Source of the DNA: a virus
Length of the DNA stretch: 64,000 nt
Strand: one strand, 5' to 3'
IMG/VR virus record: IMGVR_UViG_3300042371_000495
Location: 1-64,000 of that record
The position numbers and the translations under genes were made by a program. Under the pieces are notes generated by a model. The model was not told where the DNA came from, searched no databases, and worked only from the letters and a program-made list of their open reading frames with translations. Of the stretch, positions 3,336 through 25,062 are shown in pieces. Numbering within the stretch: the first letter of the stretch is position 1; each line of letters begins with the position of its first letter.

Positions 3336-3341
3336 ATGATT

Positions 3342-3370
3342 ATAATACCAAAGTTCCTTTTGTTTGTAAA
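3342..3370 (-). promoter_or_regulatory. Early/middle-type promoter, leaderless geometry
   Basis: Minus strand: -35 TTTACA (3365-3370), 17-nt spacer ending TGG, -10 TATTAT (3342-3347), then 6 nt to the ATG at 3335. It fits the TGTACA/TTTACA-N14-GG-TAnnAT family repeated elsewhere in the window. Confidence 0.55.
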
Positions 3371-4634: not shown

Positions 4635-4635
4635 A

Positions 4636-7442: not shown

Positions 7443-7491
7443 CATCTTTTTACATAAAAATGAAACTTTTTTCAATATCTCCAGACACCAA

Positions 7492-9250: not shown

Positions 9251-11782
9251 TCAACCGAAGAAATCCTCGAGACTAGCGCGAGGTTCAGGACTCCATCCGA
9301 TCGCGTCGAGGATGAGGACCAATGGATCAATGAACGCCTTCTCGAACTGCTTATCATAGTCGATATACTTATGAAGCCCGAGTTCCTTTGGAAGTTTATC
9401 CGGAAAAGAAATAACGTTCTCACCCAAAGAATTTGGCATCTTTAGGTAAGAGTAGCGAATGCGCTCGCCGTTTTGAATCTGAGGATACTTCTTATCGATA
9501 CCGGCATCCTTGAGTGCCCGATTGTAGAGCAATGCGCCGCGACAGTGGAGAGGAGTACCTTTCGTATAGATCGTACTCTTGTTTGCCCACTTACGAATAC
9601 TCGACAAACCACGAGGGAAAGAGATTTCCTCGGGTTCGACAGAACTAAATTGAATCCTAAATTCATTCAATGCTCGCTGAGTAGCAGACTCGTCACCTGT
9701 CATGATCACCTTGAACATCTGCTTGAAAGCATCGCGACAAATCGCGGGGGTCGAACTCTTGATTGCCTCGATGCCAACCATCTTGATCTTCGGCTCGGCG
9801 TATCGGACACCTTCATTGTCATGCACGTTCATGATGTATCGCTTCTTGGCAGTCCAGATGGCACGATCGGCGATGGCTTCTCGTTTCATCACCATGGTAT
9901 TCTTGAAGGCATTCGTCAACTTAGCGAGATTATCGAATGCCTCGACTAGGATAGGTTCGATACCTTTCGAACCGAATTCATCCAAGAAATCAATAGGATT
10001 CACTGGTTTGAAATGATCGACGATGTCTTTAACGGAGACATAAAGCGAATCAGTATCCATTGCGATGATTCGATCTTTGTGTTTTTTATCCTTGAGCATG
10101 GTACCGAGCCAAGCATTAAGAGTTTCTTCTCCCCAACGATTGACCAATTGACCCGAGAGCGTGATACCCTCGGCGATGGCAAGGTTGAAGTAACGAAAGT
10201 ATCGATTACCCATGGCGCCGTAAAGACTATTCAGAAGGATCTTGACTGTCATCTGCTCGGTCTCGAGTCTGGCAATATCTGACTCGGCCGTGAAGTAAGT
10301 CTTACGATCGTTTTTATCGATCGACTCGAGCTTTTGCTTGGCATCCAACATTGCGCGCTTGATCTTGACACGCTTATTATAAAGCTCCTCGACGATTTCA
10401 GGAATGATACCCATCTTGTCTCGACGAAAGCATGCGCCGTTAGCGGCCATTGCCAAGTTAGGTTCAGGAGATAGACACGCGCCTTTGTTGGCAAGCACAT
10501 AGTCCGGAGAAATACCAGGAACGTGCATATGTGACACCAATGTTTCAGGACTCATGTTATATTGAATGATGAGGTTCGGATAGAGTGAGTTAAGGTCGAA
10601 TGACAATACCCAATCATACATACCAGGGACTGGGTCCTTGACGTAGCCACCGGGATAATCTGCTTTGAAAGCGTTCTCAGGTTGAGGCACCGCGATATGC
10701 TTCTGAGCCAATCGCCGAAAGATGATCGAATCCCAGATAGCTGTAGTGCCAAGCGTTTCTTGATAGTTGACTCCACCGAGGTAAGCCATGTTGAAGACGA
10801 GGTTGATCAGGCCGAGTTTTGCCTCGAAGCGATCGACCAATTCTACGTCCTTGATGTTGTAATCGACATACGTCTGGAAATCGTTCTCGTAGAGTTTGAT
10901 CAACGAACCATGTTCGCCGTAATCGAGCTTACGTTCACCCAGGACGATCTGTGCGATGTGATCAAGTTTGTAAGATTCTTGTGCGCCATAAGTGTATCCG
11001 AACTTCTTAAAGAGCTCTAGGTAATCGAGCTGCTGAACGCCCGAGATATCGAAGAACATTGTCTCGCGACCTTTGATCACCACACTCTTTTGTTCCACCG
11101 AACCCCAGGGTGATAAGCGTTTTGCCATATCGGTACCTAACACTCGTGAGATACGATTCACGATGTAAGGGACATCGAAGCCACGAATATTCCAGCCGGT
11201 GATGACATCCGGAGTATTCGGAAGATCGCTCCACCAAGTGATGAAGTCGGTGAGCATCTCGACCTCGGAACTGAAGCGTCGATATTCCTTGCGAACTCCA
11301 CCGCGAGTGGTGTCGTATGCCTTCATTCCCCAGATTCGATAGATGTCGTCCTTACTCGACTTGAGAGCGATCGTCAAGATCGATTGTTCGGCTTTGTCAG
11401 GTTCAGGAAATCCAGAGGAATCATAGTGAGTCTCGATATCGATCGAGCAGATATCGATCAGACGCTTATCGAACTTGATATCACCAGGAAATTCTGCCTG
11501 AATGAAAGCCGGGATATGGCGATCATTACCATAGATCTTGAACGAGTCGACATCCTCGTAAGTCTTCATGAATTGGCGGCAATCAGACATGGAGTCAAAG
11601 CGCATCGACTCGACTGCAGTCCCATCCAGAGCTTTCCATTTCGTATTCTTTTCCTTAGATTCAAGATACATCACAGGACGGAACTTGAACTTGTCATAGA
11701 CCTTTCGGCCGTCGTCATCGTATCCTCGATAGAGGAGGTAATTCATTTTGCGATCGATACACGTATAGAAGCCTTTTAGCAT
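9251..11782 (-). CDS. 43: DNA polymerase, family B (gp43)
   Basis: 843 residues, uninterrupted. Exonuclease motifs are present: DIET near residue 114, a GWNIRGFDVPY segment (Exo II), and YNIKDVELV (Exo III). Polymerase motif A DLNSLYPN lies near 396, motif B NSLYGAMGN near 517, and motif C DTDS near 575. It is the replicative polymerase, working with the gp45 clamp and gp44/62 loader. The start at 11782 (MLKGFYTCID) is chosen by homology and by the promoter whose -10 lies 6 nt upstream. An ATG at 11818 would sit inside the terminator hairpin. Confidence 0.97.
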   Translation of the reverse strand: MLKGFYTCIDRKMNYLLYRGYDDDGRKVYDKFKFRPVMYLESKEKNTKWKALDGTAVESMRFDSMSDCRQFMKTYEDVDSFKIYGNDRHIPAFIQAEFPGDIKFDKRLIDICSIDIETHYDSSGFPEPDKAEQSILTIALKSSKDDIYRIWGMKAYDTTRGGVRKEYRRFSSEVEMLTDFITWWSDLPNTPDVITGWNIRGFDVPYIVNRISRVLGTDMAKRLSPWGSVEQKSVVIKGRETMFFDISGVQQLDYLELFKKFGYTYGAQESYKLDHIAQIVLGERKLDYGEHGSLIKLYENDFQTYVDYNIKDVELVDRFEAKLGLINLVFNMAYLGGVNYQETLGTTAIWDSIIFRRLAQKHIAVPQPENAFKADYPGGYVKDPVPGMYDWVLSFDLNSLYPNLIIQYNMSPETLVSHMHVPGISPDYVLANKGACLSPEPNLAMAANGACFRRDKMGIIPEIVEELYNKRVKIKRAMLDAKQKLESIDKNDRKTYFTAESDIARLETEQMTVKILLNSLYGAMGNRYFRYFNLAIAEGITLSGQLVNRWGEETLNAWLGTMLKDKKHKDRIIAMDTDSLYVSVKDIVDHFKPVNPIDFLDEFGSKGIEPILVEAFDNLAKLTNAFKNTMVMKREAIADRAIWTAKKRYIMNVHDNEGVRYAEPKIKMVGIEAIKSSTPAICRDAFKQMFKVIMTGDESATQRALNEFRIQFSSVEPEEISFPRGLSSIRKWANKSTIYTKGTPLHCRGALLYNRALKDAGIDKKYPQIQNGERIRYSYLKMPNSLGENVISFPDKLPKELGLHKYIDYDKQFEKAFIDPLVLILDAIGWSPEPRASLEDFFG

Positions 11783-11788
11783 GAGGAG

Positions 11789-11817
11789 ATTGTACCAAAA
11801 AGGGCGGCATTTGTACA
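11789..11817 (-). promoter_or_regulatory. gp43 promoter, leaderless geometry
   Basis: Minus strand: TGTACA (11812-11817), 17-nt spacer ending TGG, TACAAT (11789-11794), then CTCCTC and the gp43 ATG. The -35 and spacer lie inside the terminator hairpin of the Hsp20 unit. Confidence 0.7.
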
Positions 11818-11835
11818 TGACAAACTACCGCCCTT
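11800..11835 (-). terminator. Terminator of the Hsp20 unit
   Basis: Minus-strand inverted repeat AAGGGCGG / CCGCCCTT with a second inner pairing TTTGT / ACAAA, followed by a T run (11797-11801). It lies between the Hsp20 stop and gp43, and overlaps the gp43 promoter. Confidence 0.75.
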
Positions 11836-11852
11836 AAGATTATTTTTATCCT

Positions 11853-12284
11853 TTATTGTGCTTTGATCGTGATCTTTTTAGGCAATTTCTCCTCAGGGAT
11901 CACTTGCTCTAGGACGATCGTCAGGATGCCGTTTGCCAAGGTGGATTCAACTACCTCTACGTATTCTGCGAGTACGAACTGGCGCTTGAACTTACGAGAG
12001 CTGATTCCTTTATGGGAATAGTCCCTTTCGTCCTTACCTTCTTTTTGACCCGAAATGGTTAGGGTGTTTTCTACGACTTCGATATCAAGATCTTCCTCGC
12101 TAAATCCCGCAACCGCGATTTCCACCGCATGTTGGTTGTCTCCTGCCTTAAAAATGTTATAAGGCGGATAAGTGGTATTTTTGTTGTCTTGAAATATGGA
12201 TTCTAGTTCGCCGAAGGCTTTTTCGAATCCGATACCGATGTTTGGACGCCATGCTGTATGGCCTATTGTGTATGCTGTTGTCAT
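11853..12284 (-). CDS. hsp20: Hsp20 / alpha-crystallin small heat-shock protein
   Basis: 143 residues with an alpha-crystallin domain (about residues 40-135), including AVEIAVAGFSEEDLDIEV and the ANGILTIVL strand. Such genes are a hallmark of cyanophage-type T4-like viruses, next to gp43, and the products may hold unfolded virion proteins during assembly. Unlike most late genes here it has a clear Shine-Dalgarno sequence (AAAGGAG) and a leader of about 90 nt after a TATAAATA promoter. A hairpin terminator follows. Confidence 0.95.
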   Translation of the reverse strand: MTTAYTIGHTAWRPNIGIGFEKAFGELESIFQDNKNTTYPPYNIFKAGDNQHAVEIAVAGFSEEDLDIEVVENTLTISGQKEGKDERDYSHKGISSRKFKRQFVLAEYVEVVESTLANGILTIVLEQVIPEEKLPKKITIKAQ

Positions 12285-12287
12285 TTT

Positions 12288-12300
12288 TTTACTCCTTTTT
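12288..12300 (-). promoter_or_regulatory. Shine-Dalgarno site of Hsp20
   Basis: AAAAAGGAGT on the minus strand, 7-8 nt before the Hsp20 ATG. It is one of the few strong Shine-Dalgarno sequences seen at unit-leading genes in this window. Confidence 0.7.
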
Positions 12301-12377
12301 AAGCGAGTTTATGTTTCGATTTCAACGAGACCCAATGAAGGCATCTCATTGTCTGTGACCCGAATTGATCACGAGAT

Positions 12378-12385
12378 TATTTATA
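12378..12385 (-). promoter_or_regulatory. T4-type late promoter upstream of Hsp20
   Basis: Exact TATAAATA on the minus strand, 93 nt before the Hsp20 ATG. The leader contains a small hairpin (CAATGA/TCATTG, about 12331-12349). Confidence 0.7.
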
Positions 12386-12389
12386 TGAC

Positions 12390-13301
12390 TTACGTTGATT
12401 TCGTAGCAGTATATTCAGAGAAAGTCAATAGGTTTCTGGATGATATGATCTCGAAATAGGTCTTTGCATCCGGGTGATTGATCTTGTTATATTCGAATTC
12501 GATCTTGCTCTCGATCGGACGATAATGAAGTGTCCGAGTCTTAGGAACGATGAGCAGCTGCCCAGTAGTGGCCATCTCTGCTTTCTCTGTATCACCCTTA
12601 CGAACTGGATTCATGAAAGTATCTTTATTTGGTTGATCGGCCAAAGCTTTTAACAAATCACCAGGTTCCTTGACACCGTCTAGGTTACTAAGAACAATCT
12701 TCAATCTTTCTACCGAACTTTCACGTGCTTTCTTTTGTTCGGCGTTCATTCCTCCTTTTTGATAACCAAGCTCAGGAAGATCAATTCCATGGTTTGTACG
12801 AGCGCACTGCTTGTCCTTTTTATCGATCTCCTTTAAGTTAAAGAAATATTCACGGGGATTTTCCTTCGTAGAGTTTGACTTCTTAACAGTAAATCCGCCT
12901 TCGATTAGGAAGCATACGTTCTCGTCGAATACAAATGTCGCTCCGGCTAACTCGCTATCAGTAAGGTGTTTGATCACCTTCTTGATATCTTTGAACTTTA
13001 ATGCCTCGCGAATCGAGCGACCGTCTGGAGAGAAGTAACCTTCTCGGTCTCGAGCAGTGCCCTTGACCATCTTCGCTCCTTCTTTCTCATCGGATTTGAC
13101 GCTAAAGGCAGCCGAAAGGATACCGATGCCATGCTCATTTATTCCTTCGGTCCAGCGACTGAGTTTATCATCGATGTATAAACGTTGAGTATCGTAGCGA
13201 TTTGATTGTGTAATCCCAATTGTAGTGGGATAATTACGATCTCGGTTTTTCGCTCCGACCCATCCATACTCTTTTAGATACACTACAGCTACTGTACACA
13301 T
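12390..13301 (-). CDS. Ntn-hydrolase family protein
   Basis: 303 residues. It begins MCTVAVVY, placing a Cys at position 2 as the expected N-terminal nucleophile after Met removal. It continues with KNRDRNY, similar to the NRD motif of TANGO2-like and penicillin-acylase/C45-type Ntn hydrolases. The ISS-type C-terminal region is conserved in length. It could cleave an amide, for example a host signal or cell-wall compound, but the substrate is unknown. It lies between regA and Hsp20, with a TATAAATA box only 7 nt before the ATG, so it is probably a late gene with leaderless mRNA. Confidence 0.7.
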   Translation of the reverse strand: MCTVAVVYLKEYGWVGAKNRDRNYPTTIGITQSNRYDTQRLYIDDKLSRWTEGINEHGIGILSAAFSVKSDEKEGAKMVKGTARDREGYFSPDGRSIREALKFKDIKKVIKHLTDSELAGATFVFDENVCFLIEGGFTVKKSNSTKENPREYFFNLKEIDKKDKQCARTNHGIDLPELGYQKGGMNAEQKKARESSVERLKIVLSNLDGVKEPGDLLKALADQPNKDTFMNPVRKGDTEKAEMATTGQLLIVPKTRTLHYRPIESKIEFEYNKINHPDAKTYFEIISSRNLLTFSEYTATKST

Positions 13302-13308
13302 ATATGGC

Positions 13309-13316
13309 TATTTATA
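13309..13316 (-). promoter_or_regulatory. Late promoter abutting the Ntn-hydrolase start
   Basis: Exact TATAAATA on the minus strand, 7 nt before the ATG at 13301. The usual start point downstream of this box would fall at or just before the A of the ATG. Confidence 0.7.
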
Positions 13317-13328
13317 TCAGAGAGCTTC

Positions 13329-13757
13329 TTATCGATTGCCCTTAACCTTTCCGATCTGATACTTAGGGAGTAACGTCCAATCTTTCTTGTCTTTATGAGA
13401 GATGATCTTGATAGCCTTCAGCGAGCAGGTGGGTTCGGCCTTGGAAAAGTCAACGATACTCAGCAATCCCCAATCCGAAAGCAAGATAGTGATCGTATTT
13501 CTACGGGCTAAGTCATCTTTAGTGAAAGTAGATGGTTTACTGTCCAGTAAAAACAGCTCTTTGAAGTGAACGATGAAGTACCGACCTGCCTTATGCAAGA
13601 TATGACAACTTTGATATAGCGTGTTGATTTCCTTTTTTGAGGAGACACCGATGCGTGACAAAGTTTCCTTAACTTTCAGGAAGTCGTCGGGTTCGTTAAG
13701 GGTGATCTCGAGCATCGAAGCCGGAGTCCAATCAATAATATCATTTTCTGTGTTCAT
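13329..13757 (-). CDS. regA: RegA translational repressor
   Basis: 142 residues from ATG at 13757. The segments LYQSCHIL, YFIVHFKELF, LSDWGLLSIV and LLPKYQIGK align closely with T4 RegA (122 residues), with about 18 extra residues at the N-terminus. RegA binds ribosome-binding regions of early mRNAs and shuts down their translation. Here it lies downstream of gp62, as in T4-like genomes. In a genome with few Shine-Dalgarno sites its target recognition may differ. Confidence 0.93.
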   Translation of the reverse strand: MNTENDIIDWTPASMLEITLNEPDDFLKVKETLSRIGVSSKKEINTLYQSCHILHKAGRYFIVHFKELFLLDSKPSTFTKDDLARRNTITILLSDWGLLSIVDFSKAEPTCSLKAIKIISHKDKKDWTLLPKYQIGKVKGNR

Positions 13758-13770
13758 ACTATATGCTTTC

Positions 13771-14214
13771 TTATTTATTAACTCCACCCTTATTACGAAT
13801 TGCCTTGATCGCCTCAATGCTTTCCTTACCGAGTAATGGCAATACTTCTCTGGCTCGAGTCGAGGAATAATCGTAATGTTCCATGATCAGTTTGACATCG
13901 GCGCTATCGTCTTCTTTCTTTGCCCATTTGCTAAAGCGTTTACGCGGACGAACCAATCCCCTATAGAAGTCATACTGCATCTTTGTAGGCAATGAATGAT
14001 GGCGATTCATCTCGTTCGCCAAGAGGATCGTGTCATTGAAATAAGACAATCCGCGATTGATCATGAACGCGACATATTGCTTATCGATCGAGGTAGAGTT
14101 CAATGCTCCGCTTGAGTCATCGGCGCTACACGCTTCCATGAGGTTGACTGCCTTCGAGCCTTCATTGATATTCGTCAAGAAATCAAAGAAAGATAATGGT
14201 TTGATATCGCTCAT
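13771..14214 (-). CDS. 62: Clamp loader small subunit (gp62)
   Basis: 147 residues, helical, starting with SDIKPLSFFDFLTNINEG. Position directly after gp44 and before regA is the standard T4-like arrangement, and the length is close to other gp62 proteins. It forms the 4:1 clamp loader with gp44 that opens the gp45 ring. Assignment rests on context plus general similarity. Confidence 0.88.
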   Translation of the reverse strand: MSDIKPLSFFDFLTNINEGSKAVNLMEACSADDSSGALNSTSIDKQYVAFMINRGLSYFNDTILLANEMNRHHSLPTKMQYDFYRGLVRPRKRFSKWAKKEDDSADVKLIMEHYDYSSTRAREVLPLLGKESIEAIKAIRNKGGVNK

Positions 14215-14218
14215 AATA

Positions 14219-15166
14219 TTATTTCCATTCGACGTTACCCATGAGCTCGGTCAGACAAGCCACAAGATTGAGTTCTTTGTCGGCGACGAAGGCAGACTTA
14301 TAAGAATAATCTGCCAAGATCAACACCGCGCCCGGAATAGAACCAGGATTCGCGATGTCATAGAGCGAGTCATATATCTTACGAAACATCACCGTTCCAT
14401 CCAGCGCGGTGTTATTTGCGACCCAGGAACGCATGCTCTTGAAGTCTTTCGCCTTGAGGTAAGATACGACCTGAGCGATATTCTGATCGCTCATACCGAG
14501 CAATGCTACGGGATTGATTTGACCGCCAGAGCTGTGACGCTGACACTCATTCACAACGCGTCTCCAGTCAGGAGCATACTGAATAATGAGGTCAGCGATC
14601 ACGCTTTCTTTATACTCTACACCTTCGTTCTTTAGGATAAACTGAAGACGCTTCATAAAATCACCGGCAAGTGAAGCGAGTTGCTTCTTAGTAGTGTTGA
14701 ACTCGATTACGGCACATCGAGAATGAAGCGGCTCGATGATGCGATTCTTGAAGTTGCAAGTCAAGATGAACCGACAATTGTTACTGAATTCCTCGATAAA
14801 GCCACGAAGCGCAGGTTGAGTCGACTGGGCATTTAGATAGTCGGCCTCGTCGAGGATGACTACGCGATACCCGCCGGTCAATGATACACTCGAGGCGAAC
14901 TGCTTGATCTTATTACGAAGCACGTCGATACCCGATTCCTCGGATCCGTTGATCAACATGTAATCAAGATCGAGCATATTGCACAATGCCCGAGCGACGG
15001 TGGTCTTGCCGAGACCGGCCGAACCAGTCAAGAGCATATTATGCATTTGACCGGTCTTAACGATCTCATTGAAGACTTTCTTCAATTCGGACGGAAGGAC
15101 GCAATCATCGATGGTTTGTGGGCGATACTTTTCGCACCATAAGAATTCAGTGTTATTGTTCATCAT
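14219..15166 (-). CDS. 44: Clamp loader AAA+ ATPase (gp44)
   Basis: 315 residues. Walker A GSAGLGKTT lies near residue 48, Walker B VVILDEADY near residue 105, and the arginine-finger SRC motif (LHSRCAVIEF) near residue 155, followed by the lid and collar helices. It loads the gp45 sliding clamp onto DNA. A TTTACA-N17-TAAGAT promoter lies 24 nt upstream, inside the end of the DsbA-like gene, with an AC-rich leader (AACACACTC). Confidence 0.97.
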   Translation of the reverse strand: MMNNNTEFLWCEKYRPQTIDDCVLPSELKKVFNEIVKTGQMHNMLLTGSAGLGKTTVARALCNMLDLDYMLINGSEESGIDVLRNKIKQFASSVSLTGGYRVVILDEADYLNAQSTQPALRGFIEEFSNNCRFILTCNFKNRIIEPLHSRCAVIEFNTTKKQLASLAGDFMKRLQFILKNEGVEYKESVIADLIIQYAPDWRRVVNECQRHSSGGQINPVALLGMSDQNIAQVVSYLKAKDFKSMRSWVANNTALDGTVMFRKIYDSLYDIANPGSIPGAVLILADYSYKSAFVADKELNLVACLTELMGNVEWK

Positions 15167-15190
15167 ATAGAGTGTGTTGGCTAGAGAGGT

Positions 15191-15219
15191 ATCTTACTTC
15201 GTTGTGAGCTGATTGTAAA
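15191..15219 (-). promoter_or_regulatory. Promoter upstream of gp44
   Basis: Minus strand: TTTACA (15214-15219), 17-nt spacer, TAAGAT (15191-15196). The leader up to the ATG at 15166 contains CCAACACACTCTATAT and no Shine-Dalgarno sequence. Confidence 0.6.
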
Positions 15220-15475
15220 TGTTTTTTACATCGGCGACTTCAGTTTCATATTCGGACATTGCTTGCTTATGATACAGCTTCGAGACCTTTCGAAGCATCG
15301 GCTTAGGAATCTCAAAAGCCTTTGCGGCTGCATCGAGGATTTCATTCACCTGATCTCGGGCAACGTCGATCTTCGACATTTGCTCAGAGATTTCCTTCAT
15401 TACGCCGAGCATCGCAGCGCGGGCTTTATCATCTTTCAATTCCGTTGTCGTCGTTGTATTCTGCTCCGTATTCAT
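15194..15475 (-). CDS. DsbA-like double-stranded-DNA-binding protein
   Basis: 93 residues. The C-terminal half (PMLRKVSKLYHKQ, then YETEVADVKNIYNQL) resembles T4 DsbA, a small helical dsDNA-binding protein linked to late transcription. The N-terminal 25 residues are low complexity (Thr-rich). Next to clamp genes this fits a DNA-binding role in replication or late transcription. The match is from memory of the T4 sequence and needs an alignment. Confidence 0.6.
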   Translation of the reverse strand: MNTEQNTTTTTELKDDKARAAMLGVMKEISEQMSKIDVARDQVNEILDAAAKAFEIPKPMLRKVSKLYHKQAMSEYETEVADVKNIYNQLTTK

Positions 15476-15752
15476 TTATATAGTGTGTAGGTGTTGTATT
15501 GAGAGTTGGTGTGATTTTTGTAGTGCATCCGCTAAGAACGATGCATCCAAAAAATATGGCTAAGGACCAAAATAGAAGCGAATATAAGAATGTCATAATA
15601 GGACTTTTGGCGCGCCAAGCAATTGCTTTGACATCACCATATTCCTTCGGAGGATTCATATATTTCACCCAAAGGATAATTCTTCCAGGGAGAGTGAATG
15701 CCTCATATAAAAATGAGCGTCTCTCGGTTCCGTCTAGTCGATCCTTAGCCAC
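15429..15752 (-). CDS. Membrane protein with lipobox-like segment
   Basis: 107 residues from GTG at 15752. A hydrophobic helix (about residues 55-75) ends in LSGC, a lipoprotein-type cleavage site. An internal ATG at 15596 would give a product starting MTFLYSLLFWS with a textbook lipoprotein signal. A basic amphipathic N-terminal part containing LPGRIILWVKYMNPP precedes it. It overlaps the DsbA-like gene by 47 nt. Either a membrane protein or an inner-coded lipoprotein. Role unknown. Confidence 0.55.
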   Translation of the reverse strand: MAKDRLDGTERRSFLYEAFTLPGRIILWVKYMNPPKEYGDVKAIAWRAKSPIMTFLYSLLFWSLAIFFGCIVLSGCTTKITPTLNTTPTHYINEYGAEYNDDNGIER

Positions 15753-15764
15753 ATTCGTATAGGA

Positions 15765-16034
15765 TTATGGATTTACTGGAGTCTCAAGTGGAAGTTCCAA
15801 TTGACCACCATCTTCATCTACCTCGGTCGATTCGGCCGGTGGAGTATGTGCCTTAATGAAGGCATTGAGTCGATCAGTCAAAGCGCCAATCACGGTGAAT
15901 TCATTCGATTCGAATGCTCCGCGTTTGGCAGCGACACCGATGATATTCTGAATAAGAATAAAGTCACCGATGGTAATATCGTTTTGTTCTGGTTGTGTTT
16001 GTTCGTTCATAGGGAATGGTGTGATGTTACTCAT
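15765..16034 (-). CDS. Hypothetical protein beside the clamp gene
   Basis: 89 residues. The centre (RGAFESNEFTVIGALTDRLNAFI) is a motif common in small proteins next to replication genes of T4-like phages. The tail is acidic and ends in Pro-rich QLELPLETPVNP. The LxLP-type C-terminus might be a clamp-interacting tail, as in T4 clamp partners, but this is inference. It follows gp45 by 3 nt. Confidence 0.6.
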   Translation of the reverse strand: MSNITPFPMNEQTQPEQNDITIGDFILIQNIIGVAAKRGAFESNEFTVIGALTDRLNAFIKAHTPPAESTEVDEDGGQLELPLETPVNP

Positions 16035-16037
16035 AGA

Positions 16038-16712
16038 TTACGCATCAAAAGTTGAGGTTTTCTCGAGAGCGATGAAATATTCAACTGGGGTAGATTGATT
16101 CTTCCAATGGCTAATAAGCTTCGAGGACATTTCGACTACATAGTTACCAGCGATAACCTTGAGATTCGAGATAAGGAACTGAAGGTCGAAAGCAGCCTTC
16201 GAGGCATTGTTGTCATCGATCACGATGCTAAAGGTGTTAGCAGTAGGATTCTTCGGATCAAGGACAGCCAACGAGACGATACCATCTTTGCCTGCGATAG
16301 AGACTACGCTATGGCCAAGAGCACCACCTGCTTTGCGAATTTTGTTGAGGCTATCGGCAGTAACCTCGACAGTCACATCGGTCGAGGGCATATTGATCTT
16401 CTTCGAAGGAGAAGTTAGAATGCTTTCATCGGCGAAGCGATACTTAACCTTCGATTTGCCAGACGAAAGAACCATGCTATCCTCAGAGAAGTCGAGGTCA
16501 GGTTCGCCTACAAGGTCGATCGCCGAGAGGAAACCGGTCAAGTCATAGATACCGAATTGTTGAGGGAACGATTCGGGAATGGTAGCGATAGCAAGGATGT
16601 TCTTAGCCTCGCTGATCGTCGATAGCGGTTCACCGGGTTTTACGATGAGATTTGAATTGATCGTGGAGAAGTTCTTCAGGATCGCCAGAGTGTCGGTGGA
16701 TAACTTAGTCAT
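16038..16712 (-). CDS. 45: Sliding clamp (gp45)
   Basis: 224 residues, close to T4 gp45. The N-terminus KLSTDTLAILKNFSTINSN and the later YDLTGFLSAIDLV match the T4 clamp. The trimeric ring tethers gp43 and also activates gp55-dependent late transcription. Its promoter places the -10 box 6 nt before the ATG, so the mRNA is probably leaderless. Confidence 0.95.
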   Translation of the reverse strand: MTKLSTDTLAILKNFSTINSNLIVKPGEPLSTISEAKNILAIATIPESFPQQFGIYDLTGFLSAIDLVGEPDLDFSEDSMVLSSGKSKVKYRFADESILTSPSKKINMPSTDVTVEVTADSLNKIRKAGGALGHSVVSIAGKDGIVSLAVLDPKNPTANTFSIVIDDNNASKAAFDLQFLISNLKVIAGNYVVEMSSKLISHWKNQSTPVEYFIALEKTSTFDA

Positions 16713-16718
16713 GTTGGT

Positions 16719-16747
16719 ATTCTATATTGTTTTTCAGAGATTGTAAA
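16719..16747 (-). promoter_or_regulatory. gp45 promoter, leaderless geometry
   Basis: Minus strand: TTTACA (16742-16747), 17-nt spacer, TAGAAT (16719-16724), then ACCAAC and ATG at 16712. Confidence 0.65.
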
Positions 16748-16756
16748 CCTAATTGT

Positions 16757-17062
16757 TTAGGAAGGAATATTTTTATTTGTATCGAATTCGAAGTAGAACA
16801 TCATGCAACAAATCGCGTGCGCCGCATGGTGAAAACCGGTTTCAGGATCATGTGATTCTCCTCGCATGAGAGCCCACATATGTCGCATGGTAGCCGAGAA
16901 GTATCGAGTCTTACCGTCGGAGACGACACGCCAGTTATCTCGCGCATACTTAGCAGTTCCGAACGTCAGCACCTTTACGACTTCATCTAATGCGAACGGA
17001 GGAAGCAGACTATAGTCTGGCTTATCACCGTCATATTTGATTCCGATTTGTTTCTTCTTCAT
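16757..17062 (-). CDS. dATP/dGTP diphosphohydrolase-like protein
   Basis: 101 residues. The pattern KYDGDKPDYSLLPP, LTFGTAKYARDNW, RYFSATMRHMWA and TGFHHAAHAICCMMF matches the small phage family annotated as dATP/dGTP diphosphohydrolase (DUF5664-type). Members adjust dNTP pools, and relatives occur in phages with modified purines. That modification is not shown here. A strong hairpin precedes the gene and no own promoter is evident. Confidence 0.8.
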   Translation of the reverse strand: MKKKQIGIKYDGDKPDYSLLPPFALDEVVKVLTFGTAKYARDNWRVVSDGKTRYFSATMRHMWALMRGESHDPETGFHHAAHAICCMMFYFEFDTNKNIPS

Positions 17063-17074
17063 AAGAAAGAGAAA

Positions 17075-17108
17075 GGAATAGGGTGAGAGCGAATCTTCAC
17101 CCTATTCC
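17075..17108 (-). terminator. Strong hairpin between HTH gene and dATP/dGTP hydrolase gene
   Basis: 12-bp perfect inverted repeat GGAATAGGGTGA / TCACCCTATTCC with a 10-nt loop. On the minus strand it is followed by a pyrimidine tract (TTTCTCTTTC), and on the plus strand by TATATTTTT, so it could work both ways. Confidence 0.7.
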
Positions 17109-17115
17109 TATATTT

Positions 17116-17406: not shown

Positions 17407-17471
17407 TTTTGTATGTGTGTTGTTGTTTTTTGGACCCAAGAAAGGGCGTGGATCCTTGCGCCGTGAGATTG

Positions 17472-18614: not shown

Positions 18615-18641
18615 AATGTAGTGAGGTAAAAGTTTAATGTA

Positions 18642-18803
18642 TTAGCGAGGCTGCATTGCGATGGTAATCGTTCCAAGGGAGTTGTGAACTAATTGGAACA
18701 CAGCTTGATTGCGTTTTGCCGCGGCAAGTTCAGCCGAAGTAGGGGCAAAGATGTATCCATTATTGGTGGAGCGAATTGCTGCGATAAGTTCAGATGTTGT
18801 CAT
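18642..18803 (-). CDS. 53-residue hypothetical protein
   Basis: ATG at 18801-18803, TAA at 18642-18644. The product (MTTSELIAAIRSTNNGYIFAP...) has a helical AELAAAKRNQAVFQLV core. A clear promoter with AC-rich leader lies directly upstream, which supports it as a real gene heading the CobS unit. Family not recognised. Confidence 0.65.
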   Translation of the reverse strand: MTTSELIAAIRSTNNGYIFAPTSAELAAAKRNQAVFQLVHNSLGTITIAMQPR

Positions 18804-18832
18804 AATGTAGAGGAGAGGTTGCTTACGAGGTT

Positions 18833-18860
18833 ATTCTACCAAAAATGGGGCCTTTGTACA
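18833..18860 (-). promoter_or_regulatory. Promoter upstream of the 53-residue gene and cobS
   Basis: Minus strand: TGTACA (18855-18860), 16-nt spacer ending TGG, TAGAAT (18833-18838). The leader to the ATG at 18803 ends CTCTACATT. Confidence 0.7.
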
Positions 18861-18871
18861 CATCTTTTTTA

Positions 18872-19078
18872 TCAAATGTCACAAAATGAGTGAATTTGTT
18901 TTCCATCCTTCCACATCGTGTAACCTTCAACCCCGATGCTTTCGCATTGTCCAGTGGCCTCGGAAGCAGCATAGGCGTTGCAAACGGCTTGGCAATAAGC
19001 CTCTTTAGGTGAAGAGGAAACAGCAACACCGTAGCGAACTGTGGTAGGGACGACTAAGTAATATTTGACTTTAAACAT
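18872..19078 (-). CDS. Small hypothetical protein
   Basis: 68 residues, beta-rich N-terminus (MFKVKYYLVVPTT), several cysteines (CQAVC, GQCESIG). It starts downstream of a promoter with an AC-rich leader shared with the gene at 7022-7384. Family not recognised. Confidence 0.55.
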   Translation of the reverse strand: MFKVKYYLVVPTTVRYGVAVSSSPKEAYCQAVCNAYAASEATGQCESIGVEGYTMWKDGKQIHSFCDI

Positions 19079-19106
19079 AATGTAGGGTGGTTTCAGTTAC
19101 AAGAGG

Positions 19107-19134
19107 ATCCTACCACAGAAAAGGCCGATGTAAA
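19107..19134 (-). promoter_or_regulatory. Promoter with shared AC-rich leader
   Basis: Minus strand: TTTACA (19129-19134), 16-nt spacer ending TGG, TAGGAT (19107-19112). The leader includes CTTGTAACTGAAACCACCC and TACATT, nearly the same as the 7415 leader. Confidence 0.7.
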
Positions 19135-19190
19135 TGCTTTTTTTCATTAAAAGCGAAAATAATTTAGGGCCCCTCGCCATTACCAATAGG

Positions 19191-21488
19191 TTATGCAACT
19201 AGAGTAGCGAACTTATTCAGGATGAGGCGGCTTGAGCGTTTGTCAGAGGTGTATTTTGTGAATGCTTTCGCCAACTTATTCTGACCGCCGTTGGTCGTCA
19301 TATCACCTTCGACTTTATCTACGAAACCTTCTTCATCGTCTAGGACCAATTCTCCTCCGGAGATGATGAAATATTCGTTGAAGGAGAACCCATTCGGAAT
19401 GAATAGGCATTTGTTCTTTCGAAGTTGAGGAAGCATATTAGTAACTTTTTCACTCGCTGTAACCCAATCTTTGACTTCGCCGCCTTTCGGATGGCGAAGA
19501 GCGTTGATCGCCGAGGTTTTGATTTGGCTACGAGAAGTAGTGATGAAGAAACCGATAGCGGTGACATCACATGTGATTCGAAGGTTTTCGATCAAGGTTG
19601 CATAGTTTTGTGAAGGATGACCACGATGAAGATCGACTTGACGACCGGCAATACGCGTACGATAAGGAAGACGATTGATATTCGTGACGTCTTCTTTTTG
19701 GTATTGTTTCGTAGTATTATCTGTCCCTAAGGTGAGTCCACCTCCATCGCCATCGGTCAAGAAAATTACGTTCATCTTCTGAACATGATGCTTTTGCTTG
19801 AAGCGTTTGACCAATTCATGGGCGATGATGATCGTCTCGAAGAGTGGGGTTCCTCCAAGTTGTTCGAATGATGAGGTAATAGGATCAAAATTACCGGAGT
19901 GTACATTTTCCGGAGAATTCATCAAGAACGCCTGGGCGCGCATCTGGCGACAAGCGAGATCAAACTCGTTCTTCTTCATCGAAGAATTCATGAGCTCAGT
20001 GACTTGGCAATATGCAAGCGAGATTTGCTTGCAATTAGTATTTCCACGGTCGTTTAATGCGTAATAACAAGAAGGAGTGGTGAACCCATAGACTTCAAAT
20101 GGAATCGATACGGCCTTACAAAAGAAAATCAAGTTGAGTGTATGATTGATAACGTTTGGAATGTCATGACGCATCGATCCAGAATAGTCGATAAAGAAAA
20201 TCATACCGTGATTCTTGGCATCTGCAAGTTTGGTAACACTCTTGAAGATTTGATCCTCAAACTTATACGAATGAAGACGATTGACGTCGATCGAACCTGT
20301 CATGGATCGTTGTGCCCGAGAATATTGGAAAGCAGCCTTCTTACGTTCGAACTCTTTCACCAGAAGGTTGACATGTTGCTTAGTTGATGACTTAAATTGC
20401 TTCCAATCCTCGGTGACCGATGACAAGGTGAAATAGTAATCATAATCTTTACCATTTTTACGTGATTCCATCACCTTTGAAACCGGAATGATCGAGTCGA
20501 GCATCTGTTGCTTAGATGGCGCCATCACTGCGTTATGATCGGTGAACGTCTGCTGCATGCCAGCGAGTTCATCATTAAGGTTGCTAAGAGTTTTGGATTG
20601 AAGAGCTTCGTTTAATTCTTGATTTGAAGGATCTTCGTTTTTGTCTTCAGATTGGACTTCCTTAGACTTTACCTTTTGAGTGTCATCTGGCTTCTCTTCG
20701 CCACTGTTAGTTTTTTGCTTAAGAGAATCTTCGCCGTCTTCTTTTTCCTCAGGATCTTTCTTAGAATTATCAAGGTCAGGGCTATCGACTTCGGTTTCTT
20801 TACCTTCGACGTCTTCTTCGCTATCATTCGGCTGAGAAGGAGATTGTTCAGGCTGAGAAGGAGATTGTTCGGCATTCTCATCTTTCTCTTGCTGCTCTTG
20901 CTTTTGCTTCTTCATCTCGTCTTTAGTCATCTCATAGATGTCGCGGCAGACGTCAATCACGTCATCGATGGATTCGGTAGCTAGGCAACGACGATAGATG
21001 ACTTCCTCGGCGAGGTCGAGCGGGATATCCATTTGATTGCCGATCTTGCCTCGAAGATTAAGACGTTCAATAAATGACATCGAAGAGATGTCAGTGCCTT
21101 TGATCTTAAAGAAATCGTTCTCAATGAAGTGAGCATAACCGGCAGTGAATGAAGAGATGAGACCAGGATATTGATCTTGTACCATCTTCTCGATTCGAAT
21201 ATCCTCGACGATGTTGAGGACGTCGAACGGGCAATTAGGAAGAACTTCCTTGAACTTAGCGATGCCTTCGTCAGGAGTATAAAGGGCATGACCAACTTCG
21301 TGGCCGACCAGAAGGTCAGACACCGCCTTATTGGTGACATTCCACGTTGGAAGGCCGAGGATTCGATTCTTCACATCGAAGAAGGCGGTAGAATAGTTAC
21401 CGACCTCGACGGTGATGTTCTCCTTTGCCAGGAGTTTTGCCAACATTCCTTGAGAGGTAGAGTTGACTAATGGAGTGGCTTCAAGCAT
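19191..21488 (-). CDS. cobT: CobT-like VWA protein with zinc-peptidase motif
   Basis: 765 residues. HEVGH at residues 63-67 is a zincin metal site. An acidic, low-complexity linker follows (about 205-310, rich in Glu/Asp/Lys/Ser/Pro). The C-terminal VWA domain carries the MIDAS start DYSGSM near residue 435 and TDGDGGG later. This fits the CobT/peptidase companion of CobS in T4-like phages. The pair resembles MoxR-VWA systems that remodel protein or insert metal. The start overlaps a promoter with leaderless geometry. Confidence 0.82.
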   Translation of the reverse strand: MLEATPLVNSTSQGMLAKLLAKENITVEVGNYSTAFFDVKNRILGLPTWNVTNKAVSDLLVGHEVGHALYTPDEGIAKFKEVLPNCPFDVLNIVEDIRIEKMVQDQYPGLISSFTAGYAHFIENDFFKIKGTDISSMSFIERLNLRGKIGNQMDIPLDLAEEVIYRRCLATESIDDVIDVCRDIYEMTKDEMKKQKQEQQEKDENAEQSPSQPEQSPSQPNDSEEDVEGKETEVDSPDLDNSKKDPEEKEDGEDSLKQKTNSGEEKPDDTQKVKSKEVQSEDKNEDPSNQELNEALQSKTLSNLNDELAGMQQTFTDHNAVMAPSKQQMLDSIIPVSKVMESRKNGKDYDYYFTLSSVTEDWKQFKSSTKQHVNLLVKEFERKKAAFQYSRAQRSMTGSIDVNRLHSYKFEDQIFKSVTKLADAKNHGMIFFIDYSGSMRHDIPNVINHTLNLIFFCKAVSIPFEVYGFTTPSCYYALNDRGNTNCKQISLAYCQVTELMNSSMKKNEFDLACRQMRAQAFLMNSPENVHSGNFDPITSSFEQLGGTPLFETIIIAHELVKRFKQKHHVQKMNVIFLTDGDGGGLTLGTDNTTKQYQKEDVTNINRLPYRTRIAGRQVDLHRGHPSQNYATLIENLRITCDVTAIGFFITTSRSQIKTSAINALRHPKGGEVKDWVTASEKVTNMLPQLRKNKCLFIPNGFSFNEYFIISGGELVLDDEEGFVDKVEGDMTTNGGQNKLAKAFTKYTSDKRSSRLILNKFATLVA

Positions 21489-21494
21489 GGTAGG

Positions 21495-21522
21495 ATCTTA
21501 CCCTACCCGGGGAAAATGTACA
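21495..21522 (-). promoter_or_regulatory. CobT-like gene promoter, leaderless geometry
   Basis: Minus strand: TGTACA (21517-21522), 16-nt spacer ending GGG, TAAGAT (21495-21500), then CCTACC and ATG at 21488. Confidence 0.7.
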
Positions 21523-21562
21523 TGCCTTTTTTCATTGTTTTTCATCGTTGATTACCAATCAC

Positions 21563-23284
21563 TTATACGTGTTCGATCATTCTGGAGAAGTTTTTGACCT
21601 TCTCGAACTCCATTTTGCGCTGGAATTTTCCTTCCAGGGCATCTTGCTTATGGCTAATTACGAAGACATTCGTCTCGGCATCCAATGTCTCGAGGATTTT
21701 TAGTAGGTTATCTACCCCGTCCGAATCGAGGGAAGCATCGAACGTTTCGTCTAGGATCATGAGGTTTGTGTTCGCCGAGTTCTTCATCTTCGCTACCGCT
21801 CTCCAGGCAAATAGCAGACTCAGGTCGATTCGTTGCTTTTCACCCTCGGAAAACGAGCTGTAGCTAAAATCATCCCTATGACGAGACTTAATCTGCTCGT
21901 TGAAGCTTTCATCGAGGTTGAAAGATACGAAGAAATCCAGGATTTGAAGATAGTGATTGATCAACTTGTTCATCACCGGCAAATATTGTCGAATGATCTT
22001 CGTCTTGATACCTGTATCCTTGAGAAGTTCGGCGATGACTTCGTTATACGTCCTTTCCTCGATCTGATTCGATTTGAGGTCGCTCAGCACATCTTTCTCT
22101 TCACGAAGTGTTTCTAAGAAATTATTGGCAAAAGTGGTGTCGCTCTCGGTAAATGATTGCTGAAGGTACTTATTGAGGTTAGTGATACGGGCTTCCAGTT
22201 GAGTGATCATCATATTGTTCGTAGAAATTTCTTTCTGTAGGTCGCTGATATCATCATAGGCATCACTTGCCTCGTTATATGATTGTTGAACCTCAATCAT
22301 TTTTATCTTAAGCATCTCGTAACCATCTTGAAGTTCGAGGGCTTTTTCTTTGCATCCATGAAGCTTATGCTCTTTCATGTCTCCCTCGAGCTTTTGTTGA
22401 CAAGTCGGGCAATCATTATTGTCTTCATAGAATTTCGCCTCACTCACGACTTTAGAGATGTTGTCCTTGATCTGCTTTTCGTAAGATTGTAATGAAGTGC
22501 GAGTCTGTTGCGCCTTGAGTAAGGCATCATTGACCTCGGCGAAATGTAAAGAGTACGCTTCGCTATTCTTAGCATTTGTCTCTTGAAGCTGCTCGATGTT
22601 TTGTGAAAGTGTAGCGATCTCGTCGTTATACTTCGCGGCATTGTTCTCATCGATCTGTTTCAAGGAATCGATGTGAGTGCATTGAAGGATAATCTTTTCC
22701 TTAACGATGGTAATTTGATTCTCAGTGTCCTTGATCGTACCTTTCAATTTCGAGTTACGTTCTTTAAGAGCCACGTTCATCTTCGTAAAGATATTGATAT
22801 CGAGTAAGTCCTCAATGACCTCACGACGATTGCCGGTGCTGAGCTGCATGAAAGGAATGAAGTTACTCGAACCGAGGACGACAACCTGATGAAAGCTCTT
22901 ATGATTGAGTTTAAGGATATTGGTCTCAAGAAGCTTTTGATAGTCACGCGAATGAGATTCCTGATTGAGTAAGATACCATTCTGCCAGATCTCGAAGATA
23001 TTTGGTTTGATACCACGAACGATCTTATACGCAGTGGCGTTGATCGAGAACTCTACGGACACGGAGCAATTCTTTCCGTTAATACTATTGACCAACTGTG
23101 GTTTATTGATCGCACGATGAGGTTTACCGAATAAGGCAAATGATAATGCATCGAGCATCGTCGATTTACCAGCACCATTGGATCCTACGACTAACGTAGA
23201 GGCACCGGGATTTAGGTTGACCACGATCTCTATGTCTCCAGAGCTCAGGAAATTTCTGTATGTAAGTGTATTAAATTTGACCAT
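21563..23284 (-). CDS. 46: Recombination exonuclease large subunit (gp46, Rad50-like)
   Basis: 573 residues. Walker A GSNGAGKSTM lies near residue 35. Coiled coils flank the zinc hook CPTC (near residue 290), and the C-terminal signature SFSEGEKQRIDLSLL and Walker B LMILDETFD complete an SMC/Rad50-type ATPase. With gp47 it resects DNA ends for recombination-dependent replication. It begins 2 nt after the gp47 stop. Confidence 0.96.
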   Translation of the reverse strand: MVKFNTLTYRNFLSSGDIEIVVNLNPGASTLVVGSNGAGKSTMLDALSFALFGKPHRAINKPQLVNSINGKNCSVSVEFSINATAYKIVRGIKPNIFEIWQNGILLNQESHSRDYQKLLETNILKLNHKSFHQVVVLGSSNFIPFMQLSTGNRREVIEDLLDINIFTKMNVALKERNSKLKGTIKDTENQITIVKEKIILQCTHIDSLKQIDENNAAKYNDEIATLSQNIEQLQETNAKNSEAYSLHFAEVNDALLKAQQTRTSLQSYEKQIKDNISKVVSEAKFYEDNNDCPTCQQKLEGDMKEHKLHGCKEKALELQDGYEMLKIKMIEVQQSYNEASDAYDDISDLQKEISTNNMMITQLEARITNLNKYLQQSFTESDTTFANNFLETLREEKDVLSDLKSNQIEERTYNEVIAELLKDTGIKTKIIRQYLPVMNKLINHYLQILDFFVSFNLDESFNEQIKSRHRDDFSYSSFSEGEKQRIDLSLLFAWRAVAKMKNSANTNLMILDETFDASLDSDGVDNLLKILETLDAETNVFVISHKQDALEGKFQRKMEFEKVKNFSRMIEHV

Positions 23285-23286
23285 GA

Positions 23287-24366
23287 TTATAATGCGTCCA
23301 TCGTCTGTGCCTCGACGAATAGTTCATGAAGGCGACTCTTGATCTTATCTTTATCGAGCTCAGTCTCGATCGCCTCGACGTAGCTATTCAGCAATGTTCC
23401 GGTATCGGCCATACATATCGCTTCGTCCTCGATCGACTCGGCTGCATATTCAGAGAACGATTCGATGATCTTGATATCAAAAGGTTCGGCTGCTTGTAGT
23501 TTATCTATGAACTTATCGAAAGCGTATGGATCCTTCTTTGAATTTACGATTACCTTAATGAAGGTGCCTTTGGTATGAGACAAATCCTGGGCATTCACAT
23601 ACTCGATCGAAGAATCGCATGATGAGTCGTCATAGACCAAACGTTGAAAGATACAGAGCGGATTTCGAATCGCTGCTAATTCACGAGTAGCGGTATCAAG
23701 AACATGAAAATATTTTGGGTCATTGGCATCCGACCAGGTCAATTCATATTGAGTACCGAGATAATGGATATTACGATCCGAGCTTTTGGTGTGATAATGA
23801 CCTGATAGGACCATTTCATATCTCGAGAATAATTCAGGAGCCATACCATGACTTACGAGAGGAGCACCCTTCATCATCTCAAATCCGTGCAATTCCAGAT
23901 GAGATGCGATTACCGAGGCATTAGCAGTCTCGATAAACTTCATACTCTCGGCATAATTGTCAGTCGTAATCCACGGCAATAAACCGATGTTTAGTCCGTC
24001 ATATTCTTTCACAGTGGGTTTCATGAATACGTTCACTTCCGGTGAATAATGTGACAGATATTCATTCAACGAGCAAAGCGAATTTGTATTCTTCCAATAG
24101 ACGTCATGATTTCCAGGAATGATGTCCATGGTCATGCCATATTCCTTTAGCTTATCCAAGAACATCTCTCGATTACGCTGAAGCACTTTGTAGTTTACGT
24201 ACTTACGATGCTCAAAATAATCACCGAGATGGATGATTTGCTTCACGCCTTCAGCGCAGCAATGCGGAAAGAAAATCTCGGAATAAAAGCGTTCCGAATA
24301 ATCCAGGAATACATCGCTACCGCTTTTTACTCCGGCGTGTGTGTCATTGATAAGGGCAATCTTCAT
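23287..24366 (-). CDS. 47: Recombination nuclease (gp47, Mre11-like)
   Basis: 359 residues. Metallophosphoesterase motifs appear in order: NDTHAG, HLGDYFEHRK, PGNHDVYW and GHYHTKS. Partner of gp46 in the nuclease complex. Its start overlaps the gp55 stop by 4 nt (ATGA), so gp55-gp47-gp46 form one translational unit. Confidence 0.96.
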   Translation of the reverse strand: MKIALINDTHAGVKSGSDVFLDYSERFYSEIFFPHCCAEGVKQIIHLGDYFEHRKYVNYKVLQRNREMFLDKLKEYGMTMDIIPGNHDVYWKNTNSLCSLNEYLSHYSPEVNVFMKPTVKEYDGLNIGLLPWITTDNYAESMKFIETANASVIASHLELHGFEMMKGAPLVSHGMAPELFSRYEMVLSGHYHTKSSDRNIHYLGTQYELTWSDANDPKYFHVLDTATRELAAIRNPLCIFQRLVYDDSSCDSSIEYVNAQDLSHTKGTFIKVIVNSKKDPYAFDKFIDKLQAAEPFDIKIIESFSEYAAESIEDEAICMADTGTLLNSYVEAIETELDKDKIKSRLHELFVEAQTMDAL

Positions 24367-25028
24367 GCGTCTTCGTCTATGTCTTCGTCTTCTAAGGAAA
24401 AGAAAGTTTCAAGGAGTTTTAGATCAAGAATTGAGTCCTCGATATCAGATTTCTTCTGAACGGCAGCTTTACGAGGTTTACCAAACTGGTTCCGATGCGC
24501 ATCGGCATTTTCTGGAGTCGATCCATCACCCTTAAAGAAAGCATCATTTTTAATTCGAATGCGTTCGACCATACCTTCGCCAGTATGAGAAGCATCATCA
24601 CCGAAGTCGGCAAAAGCTCCAATACCAGAATGCTCCATGTAAAGGACCTTGATATCGGCCTGTTTCTTTTCCTTGGCGATGCGTCGTAGGAAAGCGAAGT
24701 AAGAAATCTGAGTGAAGTAGGCAAAAGCATTTGGAAGACCAGTTCGAGTAGCTTTATTGACATCGTAGTTAGTGATCGCCTTGACACAGTTTTCAACCGC
24801 ATCCATCACCATCTCGTCTCGATAGGTGTAATTGACGAAGTTGTATTTGTGCGATAGCCCCTCACATATTCGAAGAAAGCATTCCCCGATATAGTTAGGT
24901 ATGATCGGCACTTCTTTCTCAGCGGCTTTTGCCACATTCACAGAGCTGACATAGTCAACCACTGCCTGAGAGAAGTCCTTATTGTTTACGTAATGGACTG
25001 ATGCCCGTTTTTCCTTTAGCGTTGCCAT
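24363..25028 (-). CDS. 55: Late-transcription sigma factor (gp55)
   Basis: 221 residues. HYVNNKDFSQAVVDYV near residue 12, SHKYNFVNYTYRDEMVMDAVENCVKAI, and NAFAYFTQISYFAFLRRI match T4 gp55, a region-2-like sigma that reads TATAAATA. The C-terminus (SILDLKLLETFFSLEDEDID) carries a hydrophobic/acidic tail like the gp45-binding epitope. Its promoter gives a leaderless geometry. Confidence 0.94.
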   Translation of the reverse strand: MATLKEKRASVHYVNNKDFSQAVVDYVSSVNVAKAAEKEVPIIPNYIGECFLRICEGLSHKYNFVNYTYRDEMVMDAVENCVKAITNYDVNKATRTGLPNAFAYFTQISYFAFLRRIAKEKKQADIKVLYMEHSGIGAFADFGDDASHTGEGMVERIRIKNDAFFKGDGSTPENADAHRNQFGKPRKAAVQKKSDIEDSILDLKLLETFFSLEDEDIDEDA

Positions 25029-25034
25029 GCTGTT

Positions 25035-25062
25035 ATTCTACCACATCCAGGGAGTTTGTACA
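25035..25062 (-). promoter_or_regulatory. gp55 promoter, leaderless geometry
   Basis: Minus strand: TGTACA (25057-25062), 16-nt spacer ending TGG, TAGAAT (25035-25040), then AACAGC and ATG at 25028. Confidence 0.72.

Follow-up and report, generated by a model that had tools for sequence, protein, structure and literature searches.

Promoters placed 6 nt before the start codon point to leaderless core genes in a clade of T4-superfamily phages

The phage and its relatives

The stretch of DNA analysed here, 64,000 nucleotides (nt) long and referred to below as the window, covers positions 1 to 64,000 of an IMG/VR record of 67,192 bases (IMGVR_UViG_3300042371_000495). It belongs to a T4-superfamily phage in which five genes, including those for the DNA polymerase gp43, the sliding clamp gp45 and the late sigma factor gp55, are preceded by a promoter of the sigma-70 type ending exactly 6 nt before the ATG. 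Matches to PHROG families identify gp43, gp44, gp45, gp46, gp47, gp55, UvsW, RegA and the major head protein in the window; T4-type replication and late sigma genes are thus present together with a major head protein, and the gp43 matches and the gp43 tree agree with a place in the T4 superfamily (Kyanoviridae-like). The nearest annotated relatives of gp43 and of the CobT-like protein are the Kyanoviridae cyanophages syn9 and P-TIM68 and phage C48C1, and a search of annotated phages for near-identical DNA found none. The relatives compared below are metagenome contigs, except C48C1, syn9, P-TIM68 and T4, and three of them carry two names (G001 = L001, G002 = L002, G003 = L008). A host search by gp43 alignment against genome contigs yielded no match. 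Searches for psbA and WhiB in 17 records found both to be absent, so a photosynthetic cyanobacterial or actinobacterial host is not indicated, nor is it ruled against.

Five promoters at 6 nt in the window

The five promoters and their genes are listed here, with N16 and N17 standing for spacers of 16 and 17 nt.

11783..11817, minus strand: gp43 promoter; -35 box TGTACA (11817-11812), N17 ending in TGG, -10 box TACAAT (11794-11789), discriminator CTCCTC (6 nt), ATG at 11782
9251..11782, minus strand: coding sequence of gp43 DNA polymerase, 843 amino acids; ATG at 11782, N-terminus aligned with relatives (MLKGFYTCIDRKMN)
16713..16747, minus strand: gp45 promoter; TTTACA-N17-TAGAAT-ACCAAC-ATG (16712), the TAG of the -10 box being an in-frame stop
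16038..16712, minus strand: coding sequence of the gp45 sliding clamp (phrog_223)
21489..21522, minus strand: promoter of the CobT-like gene; TGTACA-N16-TAAGAT-CCTACC-ATG (21488), the TAA of the -10 box being an in-frame stop
19191..21488, minus strand: CobT-like coding sequence, 765 amino acids (phrog_459, 'peptidase')
25029..25062, minus strand: gp55 promoter; TGTACA-N16-TAGAAT-AACAGC-ATG (25028), spacer ending in TGG, the TAG of the -10 box being an in-frame stop
24363..25028, minus strand: coding sequence of the gp55 late sigma factor (phrog_234)
3336..3370, minus strand: small-gene promoter; TTTACA-N17-TATTAT-AATCAT-ATG (3335)
3135..3335, minus strand: small gene, 66 amino acids, without a family match

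The first-pass annotation had described this class as TGTACA or TTTACA, 16-17 nt, TAnnAT, exactly 6 nt and ATG, and the pattern is present at all five of the sites that it named. With TGTACA, the full pattern occurs three times in the window (0.02 expected from 100 dinucleotide shuffles), and with TTTACA twice (0.00 expected from as many shuffles). Promoter-like sites with a perfect -35 box number 12, five of which lie exactly 6 nt before an ATG that opens an open reading frame (ORF); the remaining ORF-preceding sites have spacings of 24-29 nt, save one at 12 nt. A layout produced by chance in AT-rich spacers might be suspected from the frequency of TAnnAT alone near start codons (8 at 6 nt, up to 7 at other distances), but with the -35 box included about 0.02 sites are expected against five found, and the arrangement is conserved at orthologous genes, as described below, which refutes this explanation.

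The -35 and -10 hexamers and their separation by 16-17 nt agree with sigma-70 promoters (16-18 nt), and the gp43, gp45 and gp55 promoters match 9-10 of the 12 consensus bases. The early or middle timing of this host-sigma class is assumed from the genes that it serves. A spacer ending in TGG (an extended -10), which had also been proposed, is found at gp43, gp55 and the small gene but not at gp45 or the CobT-like gene (3/5) and was rejected as a general feature. A T4-type middle promoter is unsupported, the region near -30, where a MotA box would lie, being occupied by the TTTACA/TGTACA hexamer; no search for a MotA gene was made. The start of gp43 also required a decision, as an in-frame ATG lies 36 nt upstream of 11782, at 11818, inside the promoter. 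This upstream start was rejected: the codons that it would add are promoter sequence, and G001 and L220 have in-frame stops 12-15 nt before the equivalent of the downstream ATG. The relatives thus favour a start at 11782.

Scarcity of Shine-Dalgarno signals

Shine-Dalgarno (SD) signals were scored at gene starts by a simple SD measure and compared with background. The window scores 0.11 against a background of 0.10, and its relatives G001, G002 and G003 score 0.10, 0.10 and 0.02, respectively. The 14 loci found through CobT (L215-L228) range from 0.00 to 0.14, one window-like fragment of 4.8 kb being excluded from this range. SD-using T4-like relatives score 0.40-0.61, and T4 itself 0.54. These values suggest that the clade of T4-superfamily phages to which the window belongs has largely abandoned the SD signal.

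Conservation of the promoters in the SD-poor clade

The promoters of gp43, gp45, CobT and gp55 were traced in about 10 further lineages of the SD-poor clade. For these four genes only, and with near-copies counted once, our tally comprises 34 gene-by-lineage cases, with spacings of 6 nt in 21, 7 nt in 3, 8 nt in 4, 9 nt in 4, 11 nt in 1 and 14 nt in 1; a spacing of 6 nt thus accounts for about 62% of the cases and spacings of 6-9 nt for 94%. CobT has the 6-nt spacing in 7 of 9 lineages. The prediction that relatives would keep the 6-nt spacing therefore stands as regards the promoter and a short spacing at all four genes, even in distant relatives, with a mode of 6 nt, but a strict 6-nt rule was rejected, because the spacing in relatives is mostly 6-9 nt and reaches 14 nt in some. 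GTG replaces ATG at the same position in CobT of L224, L226 and L228 and in gp43 of L008. In a 70-nt alignment of 10 CobT upstream regions, nearly all invariant columns fall within the -35 and -10 boxes.

Of 29 clade sites, 12 have a -10 hexamer that opens with an in-frame TAA or TAG, located 12 nt ahead of the start codon, and in 23 the interval from the preceding stop to the start codon holds no further in-frame start. Translation of these genes has no possible start ahead of the -10 box, and RNA made from the promoter therefore has its start codon at or near the 5' end. The opening 36 nt of the leaderless genes fold weakly (-1.3 kcal/mol, against -5.1 kcal/mol within genes), but this was given no weight here, since most gene starts do likewise.

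A 6-nt class is also visible outside the clade. Promoters pooled from SD-using relatives show a peak at 6 nt (n = 16, including one window-like phage fragment and one apparent member of the SD-poor clade), and an SD motif precedes the start codon in none of these cases. Spacings of 0-5 nt are nearly absent (4 sites), and a second peak lies at 17-35 nt, where 54 of 86 sites have an SD motif.

Alternation of leaderless and SD-led gp43

In 51 distinct T4-like phages, gp43 is mostly preceded by the same promoter, TTTACA, TGTACA or TTGACA followed by N17 and TATAAT, and then, with few exceptions, either by 6-10 nt without an SD motif or by 20-27 nt with one. The SD-poor phages form a single set in the gp43 tree (support 99), and over all rows of the tree six changes between the leaderless and the SD-led layout are needed. 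An alignment of close relatives, L044 and L035 (leaderless) with L051, L053 and L056 (SD-led), shows the leaderless form to be without a segment of about 23 nt that carries the SD motif and a second ATG. In the SD-led gp43 of L053 and L059, an out-of-frame ATG already lies 6 nt after the -10 box, and in L053 loss of the segment would join that ATG to the reading frame. The two layouts thus appear to interchange by the loss or gain of a short stretch of DNA, and the change may have gone in either direction.

Where the transcripts are likely to begin

These genes had been expected to give leaderless transcripts, an expectation that draws support from the conserved promoter and its short spacing, the background level of SD signals and the SD motifs carried by the longer gp43 leaders of SD-using relatives. 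RNA polymerase with sigma-70 typically chooses its start such that a 6-nt discriminator places +1 on the A of the ATG. We consider it probable (about 0.85) that the gp43, gp45, gp55 and CobT-like transcripts are leaderless and come from sigma-70 promoters placed to start the RNA on the A of the start codon. The host RNA polymerase, guided to the -35 and -10 boxes by its main sigma factor, would begin synthesis at that A, 6 nt after the -10 box, and the host ribosome would then start directly at the 5'-terminal AUG or GUG. For the clade, the expected host is one that is itself poor in SD signals and has leaderless genes. Both the exact 5' ends and this mode of ribosome entry are inferred from the behaviour of sigma-70 and from the leaderless genes of Deinococcus-Thermus.

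Several points weigh against this interpretation. The choice of start by RNA polymerase can move by 1-3 nt, and the spacings of 8, 9, 11 or 14 nt found in some lineages would leave leaders of 2-8 nt, which suggests that strict leaderlessness is not essential everywhere in the clade. Furthermore, an in-frame start codon occurs once upstream of gp43 and once upstream of the small gene. Finally, the window has promoters of the same class with spacings of 24-30 nt (leaders of 18-24 nt) and without an SD motif, so the host must also be able to initiate on leadered RNAs that lack one. They are the following.

15167..15219, minus strand: gp44 promoter; TTTACA-N17-TAAGAT, 24-nt spacing to the ATG at 15166, A/C-rich leader without SD, a counter-example
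19079..19134, minus strand: promoter of the gene at 19078; TTTACA-N16-TAGGAT, 28-nt spacing to the ATG at 19078, A/C-rich leader without SD
18833..18860, minus strand: promoter at 18838; TGTACA-N16-TAGAAT, 29-nt spacing to an ORF-opening ATG
7384-7450: promoter at 7420, of the gene at 7384; same boxes with one -35 mismatch, 30-nt spacing, A/C-rich leader without SD

A single promoter class is present in the window phage in two layouts, one at 6 nt and one leadered. The leadered layout also occurs in relatives: the gp44 promoter of L001 and L215 has the same boxes at 21-22 nt, and the equivalent of 18833..18860 drives CobS through an A/C-rich leader of 29-44 nt. A/C-rich stretches of 28-44 nt without an SD motif are found at 18833-18860, 19079-19134 and 7384-7450 and in the CobS upstream regions of L215-L227, and several of these leaders would begin with GUAA (e.g. 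GTAAGCAACC and GTAACTGAAACCACC).

The promoters could also be real and the RNA start slightly further upstream, giving leaders of 1-9 nt with a loosely selected spacing. The clade orthologs at 7, 8, 9, 11 and 14 nt would fit this explanation, as would a cassette such as TGTACA-N16-TATACT-TATCTCAGA-ATGAAGAA, with 9-nt spacing, which is repeated before several small genes in G002 (L091-L095) and, in similar form, in G003 (L096-L098). It is nevertheless improbable, given that two sets of promoters both have a clear mode at 6 nt, that the 0-5 nt range is nearly empty and that the typical sigma-70 start after a 6-nt discriminator is the A of the ATG. Still less probable is translation mainly from read-through or other longer transcripts, with the adjacent -10 box acting only as a weak secondary promoter. 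The genes do lie in same-strand clusters and other promoters of the window have leaders, but the boxes come close to the consensus and persist in about 10 lineages, a terminator-like hairpin precedes gp43 in every clade member examined, and the clade is without SD motifs that could serve on longer RNAs.

A covarying hairpin around the gp43 promoter

The gp43 promoter is overlaid on a hairpin, the covariation of which, with the -35 box in the loop, is new in this analysis.

11801..11834, minus strand: gp43 hairpin AGGGCGG/CCGCCCT, with a 20-nt loop holding the -35 box, followed by a T-tract; RNA fold z = -4.4

In the window, 18 nt separate the stop codon of the upstream Hsp20 gene from the start of this hairpin. 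All clade members examined have a perfect or near-perfect hairpin at gp43, with the -35 box inside its loop or at the loop's edge and a T-rich stretch ahead of the -10 box (12 records with 10 distinct hairpins: the window, G001, G002, G003, G016, G018, G021, G025, G027, L220, L223 and L226). Over eight distinct phages, 97.9% of alignment cells can pair, and in 10 of the 12 pairs both partners vary; 32 cells carry such two-sided changes (shuffles give 10.7), and shifting the partner by one column destroys the signal. Trimming of the sequences to the hairpin was done by eye, a procedure biased towards pairing though not towards covariation. In most members, the stop codon of the upstream gene is followed by the hairpin at a distance of 14-26 nt, and the identity of this gene varies. 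No equivalent hairpin was seen at the gp45, CobT or gp55 promoters of the clade, and among SD-using relatives a similar arrangement at gp43 is clear only in L079.

This hairpin, superimposed on the gp43 promoter, probably acts as the terminator of the unit upstream, a role that we infer from its form and position. It would end upstream transcription, insulating gp43, which would then be read mainly from its own leaderless start.

In T4, gp43 binds a hairpin that its own RNA forms ahead of the start codon, and the operator includes a hairpin about 40 nt upstream (PMC3014915). A translational operator of this type, with a leader hairpin and a conserved UAAC-like loop, does not fit the window phage: the hairpin lies upstream of the expected RNA start, its stem is variable and the conserved bases of its loop are those of the -35 box. 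A looser counterpart of the T4 operator, in which the hairpin would be a regulatory element rather than a terminator, acting as a DNA cruciform or as an RNA operator on read-through RNA, is unlikely but deserves somewhat more weight than the alternatives considered above. The T4 precedent, the restriction of the hairpin to gp43 among the adjacent promoters of the clade, its maintenance by compensatory changes and the weakness of the T-tract in some members (TTCATG in G002, TTTAGTT in G016) are in its favour. It is opposed by the freedom of the stem sequence to vary and the assignment of the conserved loop bases to the -35 box, by the terminator-like position past the stop codons of differing upstream genes, and by the fact that a leaderless RNA would not include the hairpin.

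TGTACA is its own reverse complement, and the -35 box of gp43 also faces a plus-strand TAAGAT box (11812-11840), antisense to the Hsp20 gene.

Late promoters

The first-pass annotation held that the late promoters share the short-spacing design, and this is confirmed: 8 of the 11 late boxes TATAAATA of the window lie 5-7 nt before an ATG, whereas those of T4 lie 14-28 nt from the ORF start (in 50 kb of its late region). Spacings of 4-8 nt are frequent in some larger contigs of the clade (10/14 in G024, 8/12 in G025, 11/17 in G016) and little represented or absent in G001, G003, G018 and G027. The T4 late box spans positions -13 to -6 relative to the RNA start (PMC1524935), a geometry that would put the ATG of the window genes at +1 to +3, with leaders of 0-2 nt. 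Later in infection, gp55 with the gp45 clamp would act at TATAAATA as the host sigma factor would at its own promoters.

Comparison with known systems

Some bacteria and archaea have well-documented leaderless genes, and phages provide single cases. In Deinococcus-Thermus, the -10 box of leaderless genes and the ORF are 6-7 bp apart (PMC12340547); Actinobacteria and Deinococcus-Thermus both have leaderless genes of the TA-led type (Zheng et al. 2011, PMC3160421). The five window genes, at exactly 6 nt, and the clade, with its mode of 6 nt, have the same layout (TAnnnT ahead of the start codon by about 6-7 nt, no SD motif), for which leaderless mRNA has been inferred or shown in those bacteria. 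The difference is that those are cellular genomes, whereas here a T4-superfamily phage has good -35 boxes and the layout extends to replication genes and late promoters.

T4 has the same two kinds of promoter (sigma-70 early, gp55 late), the same gene set (gp43, gp45, gp55) and the same late box, but its strong promoter matches lie 30-44 nt from the ORF start (50 kb of the early region), its leaders carry SD motifs and its gp43 is controlled through the leader (PMC3014915). Among the nearest annotated relatives, syn9 resembles the window in its small SD excess (0.30 against a background of 0.25) and C48C1 in a few cases at 6-7 nt; syn9 and P-TIM68 differ in that the promoter-to-ATG peak is absent (50 kb each). 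The gene psbA was not found in the clade of the window. The classical leaderless phage mRNA is that of lambda cI, which begins at the AUG when made from PRM; it is likewise a phage mRNA beginning at AUG, but it concerns a single lambda gene rather than four genes conserved across a clade, together with a late class. The Thermus phages phiYS40 and P23-45, which are lytic and of an unrelated lineage, have many putatively leaderless genes, and their host has leaderless genes too. The literature searched for leaderless T4-like phages or cyanophages, with most subscription journals outside its scope, holds no earlier description of a T4-superfamily clade that, as the present data suggest, uses leaderless replication-core and late genes instead of SD leaders.

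On a broader view, to which we give slightly better than even odds, a whole T4-superfamily lineage would have left SD-led translation, with promoters of both the host-sigma and the gp55 type fused to start codons, gp43 control no longer exerted through an RNA leader as in T4 but through a promoter housed in a terminator hairpin loop, and relatives switching between SD-led and leaderless gp43 by a short insertion or deletion. The leaderless layout removes the leader through which gp43 and RegA act in T4; leaderless gp43 and gp45 RNAs would not offer leader sites of that kind, although a RegA homolog is still encoded in the window (13329-13817). The presence of the same gp43 promoter in SD-led and leaderless form in close relatives makes it possible to test what leaderless translation costs, what it gains and how far it depends on the host. 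The layout also assists annotation: where the spacing is 6 nt, a -10 box headed by TAG or TAA supplies an in-frame stop by which the start codon can be recognised.

Other features of the window

A plus-strand TGTACA-N16-TATAAT with a spacer ending in TGG lies at 25114-25141, between gp55 and the next gene and in the opposite direction; it is antisense to the gene at 25165-25593 and has no ORF start nearby. A perfect 13-bp hairpin (AGGAATAGGGTGA/TCACCCTATTCCT, region 16757-17109) ends 11 nt before the ATG at 17062, and the L001 ortholog of this gene has a different hairpin at the same position. The window phage also encodes a radical SAM/SPASM protein (54102-54965), a sulfotransferase (41227-42027) and a cyclic-phosphate receiver-domain protein (4209-4655).

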